Positions 1,265 through 27,723 of a stretch of DNA of 27,959 nt are shown here, one piece after another (the stretch's first letter is position 1; each line of letters starts with the position of its first letter). Under the pieces are notes generated by a model, which was given only the letters and a program-made list of their open reading frames with translations, did no database searches and was not told where the DNA came from. The position numbers and the translations under genes are program-made. Origin of the DNA: Oscillospiraceae bacterium (lineage in GTDB: Bacteria > Bacillota_A > Clostridia > Oscillospirales > Ruminococcaceae); contig JAFWUX010000018.1 in assembly GCA_017523995.1 (NCBI GenBank), positions 1 through 27,959 on the forward strand, read 5' to 3'.

Positions 1265-1459
1265 ATGCAGAAAGCAAATCAGGACATTCGTGACTATGCA
1301 GCACAGAAAGGCGTGTATTTCTGGGAGATTGCAATGAAGCTCGGCATCTCTGAGCCGACCATTACCCGCTGGATGCGCGTCGAACTGCCTGCGGACAAGC
1401 ACCGGGAGATCGAACAGGTCATCAATGACATCGCAATCACCAAGTCGCAGAGTGAATGA
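1265..1459 (+). CDS. Small helix-turn-helix protein (Cro-like position)
   Basis: A 64-residue protein, almost all of it one helix-turn-helix. Its core is FWEIAMKLGISEPTITRWMR (residues about 19-38). AGGGGG sits seven bases before the ATG. It is the first gene of the rightward cassette, where phages and integrative elements keep a Cro-like or accessory regulator. Short proteins of this kind, with a YAAQKGVYFWEIA-type N-terminus, are common in mobile elements of Clostridia. It may compete with the XRE repressor at the face-to-face promoters. That role is inferred; the fold is clear from sequence. Its stop overlaps an ATG at 1456 in ATGA form, so translation of the next gene could be coupled. 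Confidence 0.75.
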   Translation: MQKANQDIRDYAAQKGVYFWEIAMKLGISEPTITRWMRVELPADKHREIEQVINDIAITKSQSE

Positions 1460-16541: not shown

Positions 16542-17099
16542 ATGGAGGATCGCGAGATCATTGCTATGTTCCAGACACGAGACGAGCAGGCAATCAAGCT
16601 GACACATGAGAAATACGGACCGCTTTGTATGACAATCGCTGGAAATATGCTCGGGAACCGTGAAGATGCAGAAGAATGCGTCAATGACGCGCTGATGCAT
16701 CTCTGGAATGCGATTCCGCCTGCTGTCCCGCAGTCTCTCGGTGCGTTTCTCGTCACCGCAGTCCGGAATGCGGCAAGGGACAGACTTTCATATGCAAACG
16801 CGCAGCGGCGCGGGAGCGGTCAGCTCTGCGCTGCACTCGACGAACTCTCGGAGATCATTCCGTCCTCCGAAACGCCTGAGCAGATGATCGACAGCATTGC
16901 TATTCGGGACGCAATGAAGCGGTTTCTCCCGACGCTCTCCCCTGCTGCACGCGGGATTTTTCTTCGGCGGTACTGGTTCTGTATGGACATCAGGGAGATT
17001 GCGGAGGATCTCGATTGCTCAGAGGGGCGCGTACATATGTCTCTGATGCGCACACGCAAGAAACTGAAAGCCTATTTGAAAAAGGAGGATTTGCTGTGA
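16542..17099 (+). CDS. ECF-like RNA polymerase sigma factor
   Basis: A 185-residue sigma-70 family factor with only regions 2 and 4. Region 2 is seen in AGNMLGNREDAEECVNDALMHLWNAI with the ECF-type DAEE, followed by FLVTAVRNAARDRL. Region 4 near the C-terminus (LSPAARGIFLRRYWFCMDIREIAEDLDCSEGRVHMSLMRTRKKL) carries the -35-binding helix-turn-helix. GGGAGGTGA precedes the ATG. Its stop overlaps the GTG start of a membrane protein by one to two bases (GTGA), the standard sigma/anti-sigma coupling. It probably responds to an envelope signal through that partner. It is a paralogue of the factor at 19321-19884, and the two operons converge. Confidence 0.9.
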   Translation: MEDREIIAMFQTRDEQAIKLTHEKYGPLCMTIAGNMLGNREDAEECVNDALMHLWNAIPPAVPQSLGAFLVTAVRNAARDRLSYANAQRRGSGQLCAALDELSEIIPSSETPEQMIDSIAIRDAMKRFLPTLSPAARGIFLRRYWFCMDIREIAEDLDCSEGRVHMSLMRTRKKLKAYLKKEDLL

Positions 17100-18115
17100 A
17101 ATACAAGGATTATTTTACAATCACGGATTGCGCGGATGAAGCTGAGATTGCTGAAATCATCGCAAACAGCCGGATGCAGCAGTCCCCTGCTGAAAAGGAG
17201 AATCCGGACATGAACAGACAAACGATTCATCACACAAAGCGCAGACTGGTGCCGACTTTGATCGCAGCTGCCGCTGCAGCAGTTGTCCTGACCGTCGGAA
17301 CAGCAGCCTATATCACCTATAACAAGCACATGGTACAGAGTTACTTCGGCACGATCGGTGAGGCGCGTGCTTCTGAACTGGAGCTTGCGGAGCCTGCGTA
17401 TTATACAAACGGCAAGGTCGGTGTCACCGCAGAGGCGCTGCTCAATGACGGCAGCTACGGTCTGCTGTTCCTGACCATTGACAAACTGGATGAAACGATC
17501 CCCGATTTCAAAAACGAACGCGGAAACTATGAGATTCATCCGGCGATTCAATTTGCCGAGCAGCCGGGCAATCTCAGCGCAATCGTTGAGGGCATCGACA
17601 CCGATGAAAATGATCCGAACCGTGTGCATCTTGCATTCCGGTTCAGCGTTCCGGATGATATAGATGCATCCGCCGGAACTGTATCTTTCAAAATTGTAAA
17701 TATCAATCCTGACGGCAGCGGGACTGAGAATGTGCAGAATGGATTTGAGGGTATCGAAATTCCACTTGATCTCAGCATCAACACCAAGCAAATCCACATG
17801 GTCTCCGAAGAAGGCAGGGAGCTTGATCTCTCCGGATACGAAGCAGTTACGCCGGACAATTACGGAATCGCGTACTGCAGTGATATGTCAATCACATGGA
17901 AAAACGGCAAGGAACAGCAGATCGGTCTGAACTGCGGCGCAGGCTTCGGCGGCGACGGCGGCGAAGAATCCGTACTGAGCTTCCGGATTGCTGCTGACGG
18001 TTCTGATATCACCGAGCCGGAATTCAGCGGCGATCCTGACACATGGTACGGCTATCTCGATATTGACGAGGTCGCATCCATCCGCATTCATAATACGACA
18101 TACTATCCTGAATAA
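17096..18115 (+). CDS. Membrane-anchored anti-sigma factor candidate
   Basis: A 339-residue protein with a 50-residue cytoplasmic head, one membrane helix at residues 51-74 (LVPTLIAAAAAAVVLTVG) and a large beta-rich outer domain ending at TTYYPE. It looks like the DUF4179-type anti-sigma proteins, but I have not confirmed the domain. The start is GTG at 17096 overlapping the sigma stop, with AAAGGAGG upstream; an earlier in-frame ATG lies within the sigma gene and is rejected. The head would bind the sigma factor, and the outer domain would sense a wall or extracellular signal. The cytoplasmic head has no HxxxCxxC zinc motif. Partner choice is inferred from translational coupling. Confidence 0.75.
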   Translation: MKYKDYFTITDCADEAEIAEIIANSRMQQSPAEKENPDMNRQTIHHTKRRLVPTLIAAAAAAVVLTVGTAAYITYNKHMVQSYFGTIGEARASELELAEPAYYTNGKVGVTAEALLNDGSYGLLFLTIDKLDETIPDFKNERGNYEIHPAIQFAEQPGNLSAIVEGIDTDENDPNRVHLAFRFSVPDDIDASAGTVSFKIVNINPDGSGTENVQNGFEGIEIPLDLSINTKQIHMVSEEGRELDLSGYEAVTPDNYGIAYCSDMSITWKNGKEQQIGLNCGAGFGGDGGEESVLSFRIAADGSDITEPEFSGDPDTWYGYLDIDEVASIRIHNTTYYPE

Positions 18116-18184: not shown

Positions 18185-19324
18185 TTATTCAAAATGCAAT
18201 TCAACAAACGGGCGTGAGAGCGAGCCGCCAAACATGTAATGCGATTTCAGCTCCGTGCCGTCCTCATATTGGAGAAACGGATAATGTTCGCGGAACGAAC
18301 CGGTATAAACTTTCGGCAGAAATGCACCGACTTCATAGGTGATTGCCTCGCCGGGTTCCAGATGAATATAGCTCCGGCGGCAGGTATCCTGATAAAACAT
18401 GCCCTCAGACTGATTGTACGCGAGTCCGGACGGGAACGCAGTTAAGCCGAAATATGATTTTCCGTTTGATTCAGCCGGCTCTGTGCTAGGCAGAACGCCG
18501 AAGCCATAATATGAAACATGAAAATCAAAATCATCGAATTCGGCCGGTGAACCGTCCGGATTTGTCAGACCGCGCATGCCGGAAAGGCCTGACACCGCAT
18601 TGATATTCTCGACTGTCAGTGTCCCCTTGACAAAGCACCAGTTCTCCGGATCTTCCTCGCCGCTTTCCCGATCAAACATATACATGACCGCACCGTTCTC
18701 AGTATCCACGGAGACAGACTGCGTTTTTCCATCAAAGAAATCCTTTGCTTTTGCATGCGTTTCACGGAAGGATTCCGTCAGATCATCAAAGGTCAGTCCG
18801 GCATCCGCAAGCGAATCATAGAGCTGCACATCATTCAGCGTCATCGCAAGAATACCGCTTTTGCCCATTGAATTGACAAGAAACCTGCTGCCGACCTCCT
18901 GCCGCAGATCGTTATCCGGCATCTCCATATCCGCAGGGAACGGAATGATCAGCTCCGTGGTTGTCACGGGAGGCTCGGTTGTGGTGGTGACGGTTGTTGT
19001 CTCCACGATCTCGAACAGATCGGTGCGGAGCGTTTCAACCGGCTTTTCGGATTCTGATTGCTGAGAGGCAGCAGTTTCTTCACTAGATGCTGTCTGTGTT
19101 GTACCGCTGCTTGCGGGCTGCTGACTCTGCACAATGCCGTCGCGGAATATGCTTGTGAACATCACTGCTGTTACGCTGACCGCCGCGATCACCGCAGCAG
19201 CTGCTCCGAACCGCGAAACAAACCGCTTGATATGCTGCTTTCTGCCGGAAAGATTCTGCGCCATGTCCTCATAGAACGCGGCATCGACTTCGCCGATCAC
19301 ATCAAGCAAATCCGTATTTTTCAT
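18185..19324 (-). CDS. Membrane-anchored anti-sigma factor candidate, Ser/Thr-rich linker
   Basis: A 379-residue single-pass protein. Residues 1-38 are cytoplasmic (MKNTDLLDVIGEVDAAFYED), residues 39-60 form the membrane helix, and residues 61-130 are a Ser/Thr/Gln/Glu-rich linker with runs such as TTTVTTTTEPPVTTTE. A beta-rich outer domain follows, which I do not recognise. The linker suggests a wall-spanning stalk. The ATG at 19322-19324 overlaps the sigma stop as ATGA, and GAGGAGGGG sits upstream, so the pair is translationally coupled. The outer domains of this protein and of the one at 17096 look unrelated by eye, so the two would sense different things. Role inferred from architecture. 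Confidence 0.75.
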   Translation of the reverse strand: MKNTDLLDVIGEVDAAFYEDMAQNLSGRKQHIKRFVSRFGAAAAVIAAVSVTAVMFTSIFRDGIVQSQQPASSGTTQTASSEETAASQQSESEKPVETLRTDLFEIVETTTVTTTTEPPVTTTELIIPFPADMEMPDNDLRQEVGSRFLVNSMGKSGILAMTLNDVQLYDSLADAGLTFDDLTESFRETHAKAKDFFDGKTQSVSVDTENGAVMYMFDRESGEEDPENWCFVKGTLTVENINAVSGLSGMRGLTNPDGSPAEFDDFDFHVSYYGFGVLPSTEPAESNGKSYFGLTAFPSGLAYNQSEGMFYQDTCRRSYIHLEPGEAITYEVGAFLPKVYTGSFREHYPFLQYEDGTELKSHYMFGGSLSRPFVELHFE

Positions 19325-19884
19325 AGATACCCCTCCTCTTCCAGATGGTTCCGGAGCGCCTGCCGCATCCGGCTGAGCGCCTTTTTGACAGCGTCCTCGG
19401 TCATGCCGTGCTGGATTGCAATGTCACGGATCGGCATCAGTGCGCCGTAGCGTTCCATGAAGATCCGCCGCTTGTTCGCTGACAATGCACCGAGAAACCG
19501 GTTCATCTCCGCGAGCAGCGCATTCCGGCTGATCTGTGCCTCGACATTCTCACCGGACGGAATACACTCCTCCAGTTCACTCAGTGCAACCGGTACCTGT
19601 CCGCCGCCGCGTTTCTGCCGGTTGTCTGCACGGTACCTGTTGATCGCTGCACGGCGCGTCAGAGTAATCAGATACGCCTGCAAGTGCTCCGGCGGATTCG
19701 TCGGAATCGAATTCCATGCACTGAGCAAAGCGTCATCGAATGTTTCCTCTGCATCGCGCTCATTCCCGAGAATGTTCATCGCAGTCCGTCTGCAAATGTC
19801 ACCGTAAGCCTCTGTCATCATTTGAATCGCCCGCTCATCGCGTGAGTGTATCAGCGCAATGATCTTTTTTTCGTCGGTCTGCAT
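19321..19884 (-). CDS. ECF-like RNA polymerase sigma factor
   Basis: A 187-residue sigma-70 family factor. Region 2 includes AMNILGNERDAEETFDDALLSAWNSI and LQAYLITLTRRAAINRYR; region 4 includes LSANKRRIFMERYGALMPIRDIAIQHGMTEDAVKKALSRMRQAL. It is clearly homologous to the factor at 16542. The start at MQTDEKK was chosen because homology begins there and GGCGGTGA lies upstream; the longer frame of 41 extra codons runs back through the transporter terminator. Its ATGA overlap with the next gene marks the sigma/anti-sigma unit. A candidate ECF-type promoter lies at 19911-19924. Confidence 0.9.
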   Translation of the reverse strand: MQTDEKKIIALIHSRDERAIQMMTEAYGDICRRTAMNILGNERDAEETFDDALLSAWNSIPTNPPEHLQAYLITLTRRAAINRYRADNRQKRGGGQVPVALSELEECIPSGENVEAQISRNALLAEMNRFLGALSANKRRIFMERYGALMPIRDIAIQHGMTEDAVKKALSRMRQALRNHLEEEGYL

Positions 19885-19910
19885 ATCGCTCACCGCCTTT
19901 CCTGTCCTTA

Positions 19911-19924
19911 CCCATATAGACAGC
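19911..19924 (-). promoter_or_regulatory. Candidate ECF-type -10 region of the second sigma operon
   Basis: On the - strand GCTGTCTATATGGG, matching GCCGTCAGTATAGG ahead of the first sigma gene. TGTCACC about 17 bases further upstream may be the -35. The match between two paralogous operons is the main support. Confidence 0.45.
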
Positions 19925-19943
19925 ATCCGCAGAAAAAGGTGAC

Positions 19944-19973
19944 AAAACAAATGCCCCTGCATTGAGGGGCATT
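19944..19973 (-). terminator. Terminator of the EamA transporter gene
   Basis: AATGCCCC (19950-19957) and GGGGCATT (19966-19973) form an 8-bp stem; on the - strand TTTGTTTTG follows. It starts four bases after the transporter stop and isolates it from the sigma operon. Confidence 0.75.
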
Positions 19974-19976
19974 GTT

Positions 19977-20849
19977 TCAGGATTTGTGTTGCACGGTATA
20001 CCGCCATTTGACAACCGCGGTTCCGATGATGATAATATAGCCGATGATGCTCCAGACATCCGGAAGCTGTCCGAGAAACAGGAATCCGAAGATCGCTGCA
20101 AAGATCACGATCGAGAAATCATAAACAGAGATTTCTTTCGCAGGCGCTTTTGCATATGCCTTCGTAATGAAAATCTGTCCGCCGGCTGCTGCTGCACCGG
20201 TCAGCGCCATGAACATCCACTGCTGCGGCGTCATGGGTTGATACTGAAACAGCAGCGGAATCAGCAACGCGATTGTTGTAAAGCCGGAGAAAAATGCTAC
20301 AATGATCATGCTGTTTTCGCCGCGCTTGCCGAGTGCACGCACGTTCGTATAGGCAAGACCTGCGCCGAGTCCGCCGATGATTCCGGCAGCGGCAGGGATC
20401 ATCTCCATGCCGAAGGAGGGCTTTGCAACAAACAGCGCACCGATAAATGCAACTACAACAGAGAGCCACTCAAACAGATTTGCCTGCTCCTTCAACATGA
20501 AATATGAAAACACAATCGCGAAAAACGGCGAGAGCTTATTCAGCATGGATGCATCCGAAATCGCCATGTGATCGACTGCATAAAAATTGCCGAGCATACC
20601 CAGCCCGCCTGCTACGGAACGCGTCACAAGATATTTCAGATTGCCTTTTCCGATCCGGAACGGCGTCTTCGTCCGGATCAAGGAGGATACGGCTATGAGC
20701 AGTGCGAAGAAATTGCGGAAGAAACATTTTTGCAGTGTCGGGATATCACCGGAGAGCCGGATAAACAGATTCATCAGCGCAAAACAGAATGCCGATGCTA
20801 TGATAAAGAGGATACCGAGCGTTGTATCCGATTTGGGTTTCTGATTCAA
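19977..20849 (-). CDS. EamA-family (DMT) transporter
   Basis: A 290-residue membrane protein with ten predicted helices in two five-helix halves, the drug/metabolite transporter plan. The first half starts LGILFIIASAFCFALMNLFIRL; the second starts near AAAGIIGGLGAGLAYTNVRAL. Conserved EamA features include the inverted repeat structure and a short charged tail. The substrate cannot be read from sequence. The apparent start is TTG at 20847-20849 with AAAGGA about eleven bases upstream; an ATG eight bases earlier is out of frame, so either TTG is the real start or the first residues differ. It has its own promoter at 20878-20906. Confidence 0.85.
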   Translation of the reverse strand: MNQKPKSDTTLGILFIIASAFCFALMNLFIRLSGDIPTLQKCFFRNFFALLIAVSSLIRTKTPFRIGKGNLKYLVTRSVAGGLGMLGNFYAVDHMAISDASMLNKLSPFFAIVFSYFMLKEQANLFEWLSVVVAFIGALFVAKPSFGMEMIPAAAGIIGGLGAGLAYTNVRALGKRGENSMIIVAFFSGFTTIALLIPLLFQYQPMTPQQWMFMALTGAAAAGGQIFITKAYAKAPAKEISVYDFSIVIFAAIFGFLFLGQLPDVWSIIGYIIIIGTAVVKWRYTVQHKS

Positions 20850-22494: not shown

Positions 22495-22585
22495 AGCATC
22501 CGCCGGCTTATACCGGCTCCGCCGAGGCGAGAACAGCGCAGCAGAACCCGCAAATGCATAATCAATCTTTGTGCAAAAATACCAT

Positions 22586-22614
22586 TTGCACTTTCGGAAC
22601 GAATGTGATATAAT
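22586..22614 (+). promoter_or_regulatory. Sigma-A promoter of the MATE gene
   Basis: TTGCAC (22586-22591), 17-bp spacer, TATAAT (22609-22614) in extended form TGTGATATAAT. The start would be about 22621, exactly where the first leader hairpin begins. Confidence 0.8.
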
Positions 22615-22620
22615 AATCAG

Positions 22621-22667
22621 GAACGTGTAGCAATTCTGCGTAAATCCAGTTTTGCTGCACGTTTTTT
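22621..22667 (+). terminator. First leader terminator of the MATE gene (candidate riboswitch)
   Basis: AACGTGTAGCAA (22622-22633) pairs with TTGCTGCACGTT (22652-22663, one G-U), and TTTT follows. It begins at the predicted transcription start, so it would release an RNA of about 47 nt unless prevented. The loop contains TAAATCCAG, which recurs in the second terminator. Leader RNAs of MATE/mepA genes include the guanidine-IV (mepA) riboswitch, which also works through a terminator; I cannot confirm its consensus here. Confidence 0.6.
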
Positions 22668-22703
22668 CTGTCCGCAGCCGGACACAATTTCATATTTCTG
22701 AAA

Positions 22704-22756
22704 ACAGCGTGTCGCCATGAGCATAAATCCAGCTATGGCACATGCTGTATTTTTTT
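22704..22756 (+). terminator. Second leader terminator of the MATE gene
   Basis: ACAGCGTGT (22704-22712) pairs with ACATGCTGT (22740-22748), then GCCAT/ATGGC and AGC/GCT continue the stem with two single-base bulges. The loop is ATAAATCCA. An A and seven Ts (22750-22756) follow, making a strong terminator that touches the Shine-Dalgarno GAGGAGG. Read-through here is required for any MATE expression from 22586. Confidence 0.7.
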
Positions 22757-22774
22757 GAGGAGGTTTCTATATCT

Positions 22775-24205
22775 ATGGAACAAACAGCAAATCTTTTTCT
22801 CGGACGCGAACCGGTCGGCAGACTGATGCGGCAGTATGCGGTACCGTGCATCATCTCGCTGCTGGTCGGTGCGCTCTACAACATTGTTGACCAGATTTTC
22901 ATTGCAAACGCATCTTATCTCGGTTCCTACGGCAATGCCGCGAATACGGTTGTCTTTCCGATGACTGTCATCGCACTTGCGATTGCCGTCATGATCGGAG
23001 ACGGATGCTGCGCATTTGTCAGTCTGAGTCTCGGCAAAAATGAGCCGCTGCAGGCAAAGCGCAGTGTCGCGAACTCCGTTGTCATGACGGTCGTCAGCAG
23101 CGTTGCGCTGAGTGCGGTCTATCTGCTGTTCAGCGATCAGATTATCGCAATGTTCGGCGGGACAGTCAACCCGGAAACGTTCGATCGCTCGAAAGAATAC
23201 TTCTTCTGGATTGCGCTCGGTATCCCCTTCTATATGTTCGGGCAGGCAATGAATCCGGTGATCCGTGCAGACGGCAATCCGAAATTCGCAATGATTTCGA
23301 CGCTCTGCGGTGCAGTCATCAACATGATCCTTGATCCGGTAATGATCTTCGGGCTGCACTGGGGCATGACCGGCGCTGCGATTGCAACTGTTATCGGACA
23401 GATCGCCACCGCCGCACTGGCTGTCTGGTATCTCTGCCACATGAAGCTTGTGCAGCCCGAACGCTCTGATTTCCGCCTCTCACGCAATATCGTCGGCAAA
23501 ACACTGATTCTCGGCATCACGAGCTTTCTCTCGCAGATTTCACTTGTCGCCGCAATGGCTGCCATCAACAATATGATCCGCAAATACAGTGCACTCGATG
23601 CTGTTTTCGGTCAGGAGGAATTTGCACAGATTCCGATGGCTGTTGTCGGCATTGTGATGAAGTTCTTTCAGATCGTAATCTCGATCGTTGTCGGTATGGC
23701 GGCAGGCTGCATTCCGATTGTCGGCTTTAATATGGGCGCGGCACTGTATGAAAGAGTGCGCAGCCTGTTTACGAAGCTCCTGACTGCTGAGGCTGCAGTC
23801 GGCGCCGCTGCACTGCTGATCGTTGAACTGTTCCCGAAACAGCTGATCGGAATTCTCGGTGCTGCAAACGAAAGCAGCTTTTACACCGAATTTGCAATGC
23901 ACGCATTCCGCATCTACCTGTGCATGATGATCTTTGCGTGCGTCAATAAGGCGTGCTTCATTTTCCTGCAGGCGATGGGCAAGGCGTCGGAATCCACAGC
24001 GCTTTCCATGATCCGCGAGATCGTGTTCGGCGTCGGATTTGCACTGCTGCTGCCGCGGTTCTTCGGTCTGGACGGCGTGCTCTACTCCATGCCGGTTTCA
24101 GATATCCTGACATTTGCGGTTGCGCTTGTGCTGATTATCCGGACATACCGGCAGCTCAGCCGCTCTGATTTACATACAGCCAATCTGCAGAACGCAGCAT
24201 GCTGA
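22775..24205 (+). CDS. MATE-family multidrug/Na+ antiporter (MepA-like)
   Basis: A 476-residue membrane exporter with twelve helices in two six-helix bundles, the MATE plan. It opens with LMRQYAVPCIISLLVGALYNIVDQIFIAN, the typical first helix with the P-x7-Y-x3-D pattern, and contains ADGNPKFAM and QAMGKASESTALSMIREI in the repeats' linking helices. Likely exports cationic drugs or metabolites against Na+ or H+. The start at MEQTANLF is eleven bases after GGAGG, a slightly long gap; an in-frame ATG at 22742 lies inside the terminator stem and is unlikely. The 154-nt leader with two terminators indicates conditional transcription. A dedicated terminator follows at 24208. Confidence 0.93.
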   Translation: MEQTANLFLGREPVGRLMRQYAVPCIISLLVGALYNIVDQIFIANASYLGSYGNAANTVVFPMTVIALAIAVMIGDGCCAFVSLSLGKNEPLQAKRSVANSVVMTVVSSVALSAVYLLFSDQIIAMFGGTVNPETFDRSKEYFFWIALGIPFYMFGQAMNPVIRADGNPKFAMISTLCGAVINMILDPVMIFGLHWGMTGAAIATVIGQIATAALAVWYLCHMKLVQPERSDFRLSRNIVGKTLILGITSFLSQISLVAAMAAINNMIRKYSALDAVFGQEEFAQIPMAVVGIVMKFFQIVISIVVGMAAGCIPIVGFNMGAALYERVRSLFTKLLTAEAAVGAAALLIVELFPKQLIGILGAANESSFYTEFAMHAFRIYLCMMIFACVNKACFIFLQAMGKASESTALSMIREIVFGVGFALLLPRFFGLDGVLYSMPVSDILTFAVALVLIIRTYRQLSRSDLHTANLQNAAC

Positions 24206-24312: not shown

Positions 24313-24388
24313 TGGTCTGAGTGACCCGACTTGAACGGGCGGCCTCTACCACCCCAAGGTAGCGCGCTACCAACTGCGCCACACCCAG
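24313..24388 (-). tRNA. tRNA-Pro (anticodon GGG)
   Basis: On the - strand a full cloverleaf: acceptor CTGGGTG/CACTCAG, D-arm GCGC/GCGC, anticodon stem CTACC/GGTAG with loop TTGGGGT (anticodon GGG), and T-arm GCCCG-TTCAAGT-CGGGT. The CCA end is encoded (24313-24315). Consensus promoter at 24400-24428 and terminator at 24257-24291. It is intact, and its 3' end is unlike the fragment at 14861, so it is not that element's target. Confidence 0.95.
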
Positions 24389-25365: not shown

Positions 25366-27723
25366 TCAGACCGGATCAATATGCCAGCACTCCGCCGCAT
25401 ACTGACGAATGGTACGATCGGAGCTGAACGGACCGGCAGCACATGCATTGCGCCACTGCTTTGCGGAGAATGCCGCGGTATCACGATAATCAGAGAGCGC
25501 TTTCAGCTTTGTATCAACATAATCCGGCAGGTCAAGCAGCAGATAATAATGATCCGGCTGATGCCAGCTTGCACCGTCCAGCAGCGCAAAATAAAGCTCA
25601 CGGAATTCGCCAGTTCCGTCATCCGAAACCGTGCCGTCGATCAGGCTCTTTACCACGCGCGCTGTCATCGGATTCTTCGACATCACTGCGCGGCTGCAGT
25701 AGTGCTCAAGCTTTTCGAGGTCTTCAACCGTTGCGCCGAAGATATAGTTGTTCTCCGCGCCGGCTGCATCGACAATCTCGATATTTGCACCGTCCAGCGT
25801 GCCGAGCGTGACTGCACCGTTGAGCATCATCTTCATGTTGCCGGTGCCGGATGCTTCTGTGCCCGCGGTCGAAATCTGCTCGGAGATATCACAGGCAGCC
25901 ACAAGCTTTTCCGCATAGGAGACATTGTAATTCGTGACAAAGTGAACCTTCATCAGCCCGCGGACATCAGGATCATTGTCAATCAGTTTTGCAATCTCGT
26001 TGATATACTTGATGATTGCCTTTGCACGGCGGTATCCCGGCGCGGATTTTGCACCGAACAGGAATGTTGTCGGCGTGAAATCTTTGATCGTGCCGTCTTT
26101 GATGCCGTAGTAAATCCAGAGAATCGAGAATGCATTGAGCAGCTGACGCTTGTACTCATGCAGGCGCTTGATCTGGATATCAAAGCAGCTTTCCGGATCA
26201 ATGGAGACGCCCTCAGTCTTTTGGATATAATCCGCAAGCTGACGTTTCTTCTCCTGCTTGATTGCGCGGAATCGCTCCATGACAGCTGCATCGTCTGCGT
26301 ATCCGGAAAGATTCCGCAGATCGTTCAGTTCGGTCAGGAAGTGCCGCGAGCCGGAAAGCTCAGAGAACAAAGCAGTCAGCTCCGGATTGCAGACCCCGAG
26401 CCAGCGGCGCTGTGTGATGCCATTCGTCTTGTTCTGGAATTTCTCCGGTGCAAGCGCGTACCATTCCTTGAGAACGGTGGTTTTCAGCAGCTCTGTGTGA
26501 ATCGCTGCAACACCGTTGACATATCTGCCCGCGTACATCGCAAGATTCGCCATGTGAACCTGACCGTTCTTGATGATGCGCATGGCTTCAATCTCAGCCT
26601 GCGGATGATCCTTTGCATAGAGCTCCTCGAGGAACTGCTCTGAGATCTGCAGCATGATGGCGTAGATCTCCGGCAGAAGCTCCTCCACCAGATCGCAGTC
26701 CCACTTTTCCAGTGCCTCCTGCATGATCGTGTGATTCGTGTAGGAGAAAATCTGCTTTGCCATTGCAAGCGCTTCTGTAAAGGAATAACCTTCCGGTTTC
26801 AGCAGGCGGATCAGCTCCGGAATCGAAATCACCGGATGCGTATCGTTGAGCTGCACCGCCAGATGCTCCGGCAGCGAATCCAGCGTGCCGAACTGTGCCT
26901 TGTGCTTTTTCAGGCAGTCGGCAAGAGACGCTGCGCAGAAGAAATACTGCTGTTTGAGACGGAGCGCCTTGCCTGCGCGTGTATCGTCATTCGGATAAAG
27001 ACAGCGTGAGATATCCTCAGCGGAGATTGTCTCAGCGGACGCGGCAAGATAATCCTGCGCATTGAACGTGTCAAAATCAAATGCGCTGACCGGTTCCGCC
27101 TGCCAGAGACGCAGCGTGCCGATATGCGGCTCTTTGCCGTCTGCAGCGTATCCGATGACCGGCATATCGTAAGGGACTGCACGCACCGTCTGTCCGCGGT
27201 ATGCAACCGGAACAACATCAGCTTCACAGCGAATGCTCCACGGATCACCGAAGCGTGACCAGTCATCGCCGGTCTCGGTTTGTCTGCCGTTTTCAAAGCC
27301 CTGCTTAAACAGACCGTACCGATAGCGAATGCCGTAACCGTCAACAGGAAGTGAACATGTTGCAGCGCTGTCTAAAAAGCAAGCAGCCAGTCTGCCGAGA
27401 CCGCCGTTTCCGAGCGCAGCATCCTCGATCTCCTCAAATACGGAAAGCGAAGTGCCGGCATGCTCAAAAGCCCGCTGCATATCATCCAGCAGCCCGAGGC
27501 AGTAAAGATTATTGTATACCGCTCTGCCTATGAGAAACTCCATGGAGAAATAGCAGACGCGGCGATTTGTTAAATGTGCCTGACGGCAGCTGTTCCAGCG
27601 CGGCAGAATCTCAGCGGTCACAGCCTCGCCGAGCGCATTGTGCAGCGCATGTACCTCCGCCTTGTCAGCAGTTGTTCCGAGTGAAGCCTCAGCCCGTTTG
27701 AGTATCGCTTCAGCCCGATTCAT
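25366..27723 (-). CDS. glgP: Glycogen/starch/alpha-glucan phosphorylase
   Basis: Releases glucose-1-phosphate from glycogen or maltodextrin using phosphate and pyridoxal phosphate (PLP). The 785 residues are near the usual 790-820. PLP is held by Lys631 in EASGTGNMKMMLNG, the family signature; GNGGLGRLAACFLDS, LNDTHPVI and IKRLHEYKRQLLN are further conserved blocks. The N-terminal MNRAEAILKRAEAS is short, lacking the regulatory phosphorylation segment of animal enzymes. AAAGGAGG lies seven bases before the ATG. It works with the GH13 enzyme at 3998 in using stored or imported glucans. First gene of a leftward operon with two DUF805 genes, promoter at 27761-27789. Confidence 0.95.
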   Translation of the reverse strand: MNRAEAILKRAEASLGTTADKAEVHALHNALGEAVTAEILPRWNSCRQAHLTNRRVCYFSMEFLIGRAVYNNLYCLGLLDDMQRAFEHAGTSLSVFEEIEDAALGNGGLGRLAACFLDSAATCSLPVDGYGIRYRYGLFKQGFENGRQTETGDDWSRFGDPWSIRCEADVVPVAYRGQTVRAVPYDMPVIGYAADGKEPHIGTLRLWQAEPVSAFDFDTFNAQDYLAASAETISAEDISRCLYPNDDTRAGKALRLKQQYFFCAASLADCLKKHKAQFGTLDSLPEHLAVQLNDTHPVISIPELIRLLKPEGYSFTEALAMAKQIFSYTNHTIMQEALEKWDCDLVEELLPEIYAIMLQISEQFLEELYAKDHPQAEIEAMRIIKNGQVHMANLAMYAGRYVNGVAAIHTELLKTTVLKEWYALAPEKFQNKTNGITQRRWLGVCNPELTALFSELSGSRHFLTELNDLRNLSGYADDAAVMERFRAIKQEKKRQLADYIQKTEGVSIDPESCFDIQIKRLHEYKRQLLNAFSILWIYYGIKDGTIKDFTPTTFLFGAKSAPGYRRAKAIIKYINEIAKLIDNDPDVRGLMKVHFVTNYNVSYAEKLVAACDISEQISTAGTEASGTGNMKMMLNGAVTLGTLDGANIEIVDAAGAENNYIFGATVEDLEKLEHYCSRAVMSKNPMTARVVKSLIDGTVSDDGTGEFRELYFALLDGASWHQPDHYYLLLDLPDYVDTKLKALSDYRDTAAFSAKQWRNACAAGPFSSDRTIRQYAAECWHIDPV

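Follow-up and report, generated by a model that had tools for sequence, protein, structure and literature searches.

A candidate terminator-embedded riboswitch of about 37 nt, present twice in the leader of a MATE exporter gene and recurrent in gut and rumen Clostridia

The stretch of DNA analyzed here (hereafter the window) comprises 27,959 nt of contig JAFWUX010000018.1 from an Oscillospiraceae bacterium. It contains a gene for a MATE-family exporter at 22775..24205 on the plus strand (476 aa, MEQTANLFLGREPVG...; Pfam PF01554 at E 6.3e-33 for the ORF 22742-24205). Its start is probably the ATG at 22775, in agreement with related proteins, and a ribosome-binding site, GAGGAGG, can be read at 22757..22763 (+). 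Further upstream, a consensus scan finds a sigma-70-type promoter at 22585..22614 (+), with a -35-like TTTGCA at 22585, a spacer of 18 and TATAAT at 22609-22614. An earlier note on this DNA had placed the transcript start at about 22621, at the first of two hairpins. Since 7 nt separate the TATAAT box from 22622, a start near 22620-22622 is plausible from the promoter position. Elsewhere in the window are a tRNA-Pro (GGG) at 24313-24388 (-), which has a perfect TTGACA-17-TATAAT promoter at 24428-24400 and a terminator-like site just upstream on the minus strand (24479-24446), and two ECF-type sigma factor genes at 16542-17099 (+) and 19321-20007 (-), whose adjoining ORFs (17015-18115 and 18185-19324) have no Pfam match.

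The two strong terminator hairpins described in the earlier note, at 22622-22667 and 22704-22756, are confirmed. The first consists of 22622-22663 and a T-run, and the second of 22704-22748 and the T-run 22750-22756. The two regions fold at -21.0 kcal/mol (z -6.69) and -23.4 kcal/mol (z -5.65), respectively, and in both cases 0 of 200 shuffles are as good. A simple terminator scan missed both hairpins, probably because it allowed only loops of 3-8 nt. Each hairpin carries TAAATCCAG, at 22641-22649 in the first and at 22724-22732 in the second. The sequence occurs once more, at 26111, inside a glycogen phosphorylase ORF on the opposite strand, and the chance expectation for the window is 0.19 copies. 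The 9-mer had been regarded as a loop shared by otherwise differing stems; it is indeed in both hairpins, but the common part exceeds the loop and includes the CGTGT of the 5' arm as well as helix-forming bases that flank the 9-mer. These parts belong to a core of about 37 nt, which contains the 9-mer and begins at the 5' end of each hairpin.

A scan of contigs from one genome per species with the MATE protein of the window found 590 encoded relatives, of which the best 80 were taken as loci; most of them come from Ruminococcus, Lachnospiraceae, Faecalibacterium, and their relatives. By covariance model, 79 of these best 80 have at least one copy of the core within 700 nt upstream of the MATE match, and the sole exception has just 105 nt of contig before the match. 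In these leaders the element takes the form (A)(A/G)CG-WGYR-GCn..nGC-GUAADUCC-R-G(U/C)U, followed by the terminator arm. The earlier note had proposed a search of related MATE leaders for hairpins with the 9-mer. The core is there, but it is a degenerate GUAADUCCRG that is kept outside the window, and the exact 9-mer occurs in only 68 of 240 elements, so that the literal 9-mer was rejected as the conserved unit in favor of the 37-nt core. This master list of 240 holds 150 copies from genome scans and 90 from the MATE loci and the window. It leaves out repeats of a core already listed from the 80 MATE loci, two chance pattern matches in that set (L033 and L045), weak or partial matches (L108, L161:1531, and L201:1386), and duplicates (L087, L172, and L181).

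The layout of the element varies among the 80 MATE loci. Single copies are found in 52 and direct tandems in 10; in 17, two copies flank a gene that encodes a 79-aa protein. The window is a direct tandem, with 84 nt between the starts of its two cores and without the 79-aa gene. A tandem element, as first proposed, is thus present here with two copies in series, but direct tandems are a minority of the MATE leaders. Given that 52 of 80 leaders hold one copy only, the two hairpins do not form one aptamer. The broader proposal of a conserved, binding-type element that is used twice stands, in that the core recurs in nearly all related leaders, its helices covary, and each copy has its own terminator. 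The 79-aa protein (MKR[IV]K.ACICQTLHF...; L001:3232-3471, L213:1227-1463, and others) gave no Pfam match above cut-off for one member and no NCBIfam match for another.

The element recurs in genome scans. All 16 genomes chosen from the MATE loci are positive at E <= 0.1. Around a Ruminococcus flavefaciens genome, the positives are 41 of 291 genomes in its class and 12 of 299 in its phylum (model R1, E <= 0.001). At the level of orders, the counts are 22/194, 38/246, 29/245, 19/95, and 8/35, and another class has 2 positives among 82 genomes (model R2, E <= 0.0005 for both). These samples overlap, and each includes its known-positive center genome. Positive genomes contain 1-3 copies at the scan cut-offs. 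A pattern scan of viral contigs returned 31 stretches, which by a rough estimate is of the order expected by chance, and six of the 31 sources have a model match at E <= 1e-4, one of these (L277) without a T-run after it. A phage origin of the element was rejected on these counts. In the viral-contig sources L263 and L276, the 79-aa gene and a MATE gene are present. One and the same leader is found on three IMG/VR contigs (L254, L258, and L260), where it precedes a 64-aa ORF and a small ORF that we take to be Veg-like; this is possibly a mobile element.

The core can fold into two covarying helices, P1 and P2, with a conserved internal loop. P1, in which a purine is bulged, is of the AAC/GUU or AGC/GCU type, P2 is a short hairpin, and in the internal loop WGYR faces GUAADUC with an inner Y-R pair. 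In the window, the distal copy at 22619..22654 (+) scores 44.9 bits with covariance model R1 and 41.1 bits with R2, and the proximal copy at 22703..22737 (+) scores 31.9 and 30.8 bits, with both copies included in the training sets. P1 of the distal copy pairs A22622-T22651, A22623-T22650, C22624-G22649, G22625-C22647 (with A22648 bulged), G22627-C22646, and T22628-A22644, and its P2 pairs G22630-C22639, C22631-G22638, and A22632-T22637. In the proximal copy, P1 pairs A22706-T22734, G22707-C22733, C22708-G22732, and G22709-C22730. Its P2 is weak (G22714-C22722 and C22715-G22721) and an unusual C is present at J1/2, which counts against the reading favored below.

Three alignments, A1 (90 copies), A2 (104), and A3 (110, all from genome scans except the two of the window), were used for covariation. 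A2 and A3 were fitted to the covariance model and hence lean towards it, and base conservation is partly a product of the search patterns and models that found the copies. Column pair 5-36 is AU in 55, GC in 29, UA in 4, and GU in 2 copies of A1, with none unpaired, and in A3 all 110 rows are paired at these columns (AU 48, UA 24, GC 22, GU 14, and CG 2). Changes on both sides are seen for seven of eight pairs in A2 and eight of ten in A3, the ten including the invariant inner pair G9-C32 and Y10-R30. The covariation score of A3 is 0.516 (0.241 when shuffled), and 93.9% of its cells are paired, compared with 79.7% in shuffled and 15-53% in slid alignments. Mutual information among 222 unique cores, which were end-aligned only, recovers the same helices (top pairs 5-36, 13-24, 4-37, 10-30, 12-25, 6-35, and 3-38). 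Pair 10-30 emerges as an internal-loop pair, with C10 accompanied by G30 in 30 of 31 cases, and bases outside the helices are conserved in this set. G-U pairs within the helices, including 17 at column pair 6-35 of A3 besides the 14 at 5-36, favor an RNA rather than a DNA operator.

Other controls are weaker. The number of pairs with changes on both sides is 3 in A1, compared with 3.1 in shuffles (no excess), 7 compared with 4.8 in A2 (reached by 10 of 500 shuffles), and 8 compared with 6.2 in A3 (17 of 500), and this count discriminates weakly. The further pair types are matched by 77 (A1), 33 (A2), and 140 (A3) of 500 shuffles. Pairing is lost from 34 rows of A3 at columns 3-38 and from 26 rows at columns 14-23. 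From A1, RNAalifold recovered P2 but not P1. The core alone is marginally stable, with mean pairing probabilities of 0.35 for 5-36, 0.32 for 13-24, and 0.05 for 7-33, and for pair 5-36 the window copies give probabilities of 0.03 and 0.06. Despite these weak or negative controls, the core resembles an aptamer, as expected of a riboswitch, in combining covarying helices with conserved bases outside them.

Nearly all copies are associated with a terminator. A T-tract is found within 35 nt of the core in 237 of 240 copies (median distance 11 nt), and all 237 fold the core together with its flank by at least seven cross pairs, with a median of -22.9 kcal/mol. Flanks swapped between loci fold at about -13 kcal/mol and shuffled flanks at about -10. 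The cross-pair count alone discriminates weakly, since 200-205 of 237 swapped flanks (and 144-152 of 237 shuffled ones) still reach seven; energy is the better measure. The terminator captures the 5' strand of the core in 174 copies and the 3' strand in 63. Both window terminators are of the former type (type A). Terminator 1 (22622..22667, +) has a 12-bp stem of 22622-22633 with 22652-22663 before its T-run and excludes the P1/P2 fold, and terminator 2 (22704..22756, +) was assigned by folding. Pair 5-36 is formed in 0 of 219 terminator folds, and its covariation therefore belongs to the competing fold. These predicted folds point to an expression platform that is mutually exclusive with the core, as in a riboswitch.

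The position of the element relative to promoters is also informative. For 187 of 240 copies, the end of a -10-like hexamer is no more than 10 nt from the model start, compared with 40-58 in three shuffles of the upstream sequences, so that most transcripts would begin at the core without a preceding leader peptide. This bears on ribosome-mediated attenuation, in which a leader peptide would respond to antibiotics. Although the element does precede exporters, among them an EmrB-family protein with LmrB as its top NCBIfam match (below cut-off), a core placed so close to the -10 box leaves no room for a leader ORF, and it has conserved bases outside its helices; we regard attenuation as scarcely probable. 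An unregulated element, either a conserved constitutive terminator or a dispersed repeat, would account for the good intrinsic terminators that the copies resemble and for the several genomes that hold two or three copies. However, the copies sit 5' of genes, mostly straight after promoters, where constant termination makes no sense. Moreover, the covariation lies in a fold that the terminator does not use, two terminator designs are built on the same core, and the few copies in each positive genome are tied to particular genes. This explanation is very improbable.

For the associated genes, the 150 genome-scan copies were counted, with downstream ORFs picked by script; three of the copies, L098, L107, and L157, come from a search of genomes in which such a MATE gene had been seen before, and the MATE counts of the 80 MATE-selected loci were excluded as evidence of association. 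MATE genes follow 81 copies (79 distinct), CarD-family genes 21, and MFS exporters 11 (clusters of 9 and 2). Rarer are DUF2798-like proteins (4), Cu-amine-oxidase-N proteins (3), the 79-aa protein (3), and ABC exporters (2). The remainder consists of an unassigned two-member cluster (L228 and L237), 18 single ORFs, several of which are probably spurious or antisense (e.g., L098, L159, and L160), and five copies without an ORF. In all, 125 of 150 copies are in clusters of named families, for which chosen members were checked in Pfam or NCBIfam and most members were not scanned individually. The MFS member L173 passes the EmrB/DHA2 cut-off, and its best NCBIfam match is LmrB, below the cut-off of that model. 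Single cases include UvrA (L120), rubrerythrin (L157), a TetR-type regulator (L156, weak match), and a cytidylate-kinase-like protein (L145, below the model cut-off). Another 26 copies outside the 240 precede mainly MATE genes, but also MFS, DUF2798, TetR, CarD, Cu-amine-oxidase-type, and one other, with a few lacking an ORF.

The element thus occupies leaders of several unrelated gene families (MATE, CarD, MFS, ABC, DUF2798, and others), as expected of a riboswitch. The pattern suggests that one signal acts on drug exporters and on CarD, a stress regulator that binds RNA polymerase. The regulon is mixed, extending to CarD, rubrerythrin, UvrA, and esterase-type proteins, and is not fully accounted for by a simple drug sensor. 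Loci with the element before CarD-family genes include L001:2536, L007:3030, L068:3289, L133, L135, L137, L146, L171, L176, L178, L180, L183, L184, L185, and L305, of which five (L007, L068, L135, L146, and L171) were checked in Pfam. At L158, where an element precedes a CarD-like gene, the opposite strand carries an azaaromatic riboswitch (yjdF, RF01764) at 1290-1387 (-), some 110 nt away. At L159, the neighborhood of the element includes a CarD-like gene, on the other strand, and a partial ORF that is presumably UvrA-like. In L118, L139, and L141, the element precedes proteins with Cu-amine-oxidase-N and an esterase-type domain (BD-FAE or Esterase), which may hint at plant phenolic esters.

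Comparison with the RNA families of Rfam 15 yielded no counterpart. The window leader has no family match at gathering, and at 22500-22800 up to E 10 there are eight matches, all far below gathering and of unrelated kinds. On the leaders of 16 MATE and 18 genome-scan loci, the element is likewise unmatched, with only the azaaromatic riboswitch and a tRNA found elsewhere. The earlier note had named guanidine-IV (mepA) as the first candidate. Guanidine-IV acts by termination, and like the present element, guanidine-IV or Gd4v switches precede MATE genes among others, according to excerpts of PMC7736828 and PMC9788692. However, none of the eight matches is guanidine-IV, although the library may not hold its model. 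The architecture also differs: those excerpts describe two hairpins joined by a pseudoknot in constructs of about 95 nt, whereas the present core works as a single unit, and both window loops carry the same 9-mer rather than complementary stretches. The main genes described there are sugE or a transaminase (PMC9788692, PMC7736828), and by eye no sugE was recognized among the 25 of 150 copies outside named clusters, nor any sugE-type gene among the downstream clusters. Guanidine-IV or Gd4v was rejected on architecture and genes, and is the least probable of all the explanations considered.

Several other systems offer partial parallels. The HMP-PP riboswitch (thiS motif), in an excerpt of PMC6478431, is also a small aptamer inside an intrinsic terminator, with mutually exclusive folds and an ON response. 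It differs in that its genes are for thiamin, and in that either core strand may be taken by the terminator here. The core has no Rfam match of this kind, though the library may not hold a thiS model, and no thiamin genes were recognized by eye among the same 25 copies. The azaaromatic riboswitch and a lumichrome-sensing FMN variant respond to toxic or foreign aromatics (PMC11477304, PMC4793209, both in part), but their structures are unrelated to the present core. Tandem (pseudo-cooperative) riboswitches, as outlined in part of PMC9481103, resemble the window in having complete switches of the same class in series, each with its own terminator; for the present element, however, the tandem layout is optional. 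No description of the motif was found in titles and the starts of abstracts, with supplements and most subscription journals outside the scope of this search.

In the main rival explanation, an antiterminator protein (LicT/BglG-like or another trans-factor) would bind the core RNA, sense the signal, and stabilize P1/P2. The RAT element bound by LicT/BglG, a short hairpin whose internal loops are asymmetric, competes with a terminator, and the present core may be compared to it in size, in its two short helices, and in its asymmetric internal loop. A protein would also suit a naked core of marginal stability and an element whose copies serve scattered genes. On the other hand, RAT has other conserved bases, is found with PTS sugar genes, and requires the protein; no PTS genes were recognized among the downstream clusters of the 150 genome-scan copies. 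No regulator gene was noticed constantly beside the element in an unsystematic look. The 79-aa protein fits this role poorly: a homolog is found in only 11 of 28 element-bearing genomes (one weak, one split over contig ends, and some assemblies incomplete) in a search that also took in G111 and G112, two genomes without an element match. An obligatory role of this protein as trans-factor is therefore not supported. Overall, a protein-bound antiterminator is possible but unlikely.

An ON riboswitch for a toxic compound fits the combination of a covarying core, terminator exclusion, 5' position, and an exporter-rich regulon, and each copy is probably such a terminator-embedded switch, or an orphan riboswitch candidate. 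The conserved covarying core, terminator exclusion, promoter position, and gene association are computed results, from which we infer the ON direction and a small-molecule ligand. RNA polymerase would start at or just before the core, and the 37 nt would fold into P1, the conserved internal loop, and the short P2 hairpin. Without ligand, the following RNA would capture one core strand to form an intrinsic terminator, and the MATE message would stop; with ligand, the core would be held, the terminator blocked, and transcription continued. Judging from the pumps downstream, the ligand is probably a toxic compound exported by MATE, EmrB/LmrB-like MFS, and ABC transporters. A known precedent for this logic is the lumichrome-sensing FMN variant, which precedes an EmrB/QacA-type exporter in Clostridioides difficile (PMC11477304, in part). 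We lean towards the wider view of an undescribed riboswitch class, common in gut and rumen Clostridia, which would respond directly to a toxic natural compound, drive these exporters together with CarD, and be embedded in terminators by either strand.

If this is true, many bacteria of the gut and rumen have their drug efflux governed by a small and frequent RNA sensor, which ties this efflux to CarD, a transcription-stress regulator. It would also suggest an induction route for the MATE pumps of Ruminococcus, Faecalibacterium, and their relatives. Discovery of the ligand would name a compound that these bacteria must expel and would yield a very compact aptamer for sensors.

The window would then contain two independent and complete switches in series. 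As both must be passed, a lower leak and a steeper response are expected, which is a reasonable inference from the tandem riboswitches covered in part of PMC9481103. Some proximal copies in other loci are degenerate, e.g., with GUUGACCC replacing GUAADUCC (L013:122-156 and the second copy of L021), and look as if the second switch is being lost.
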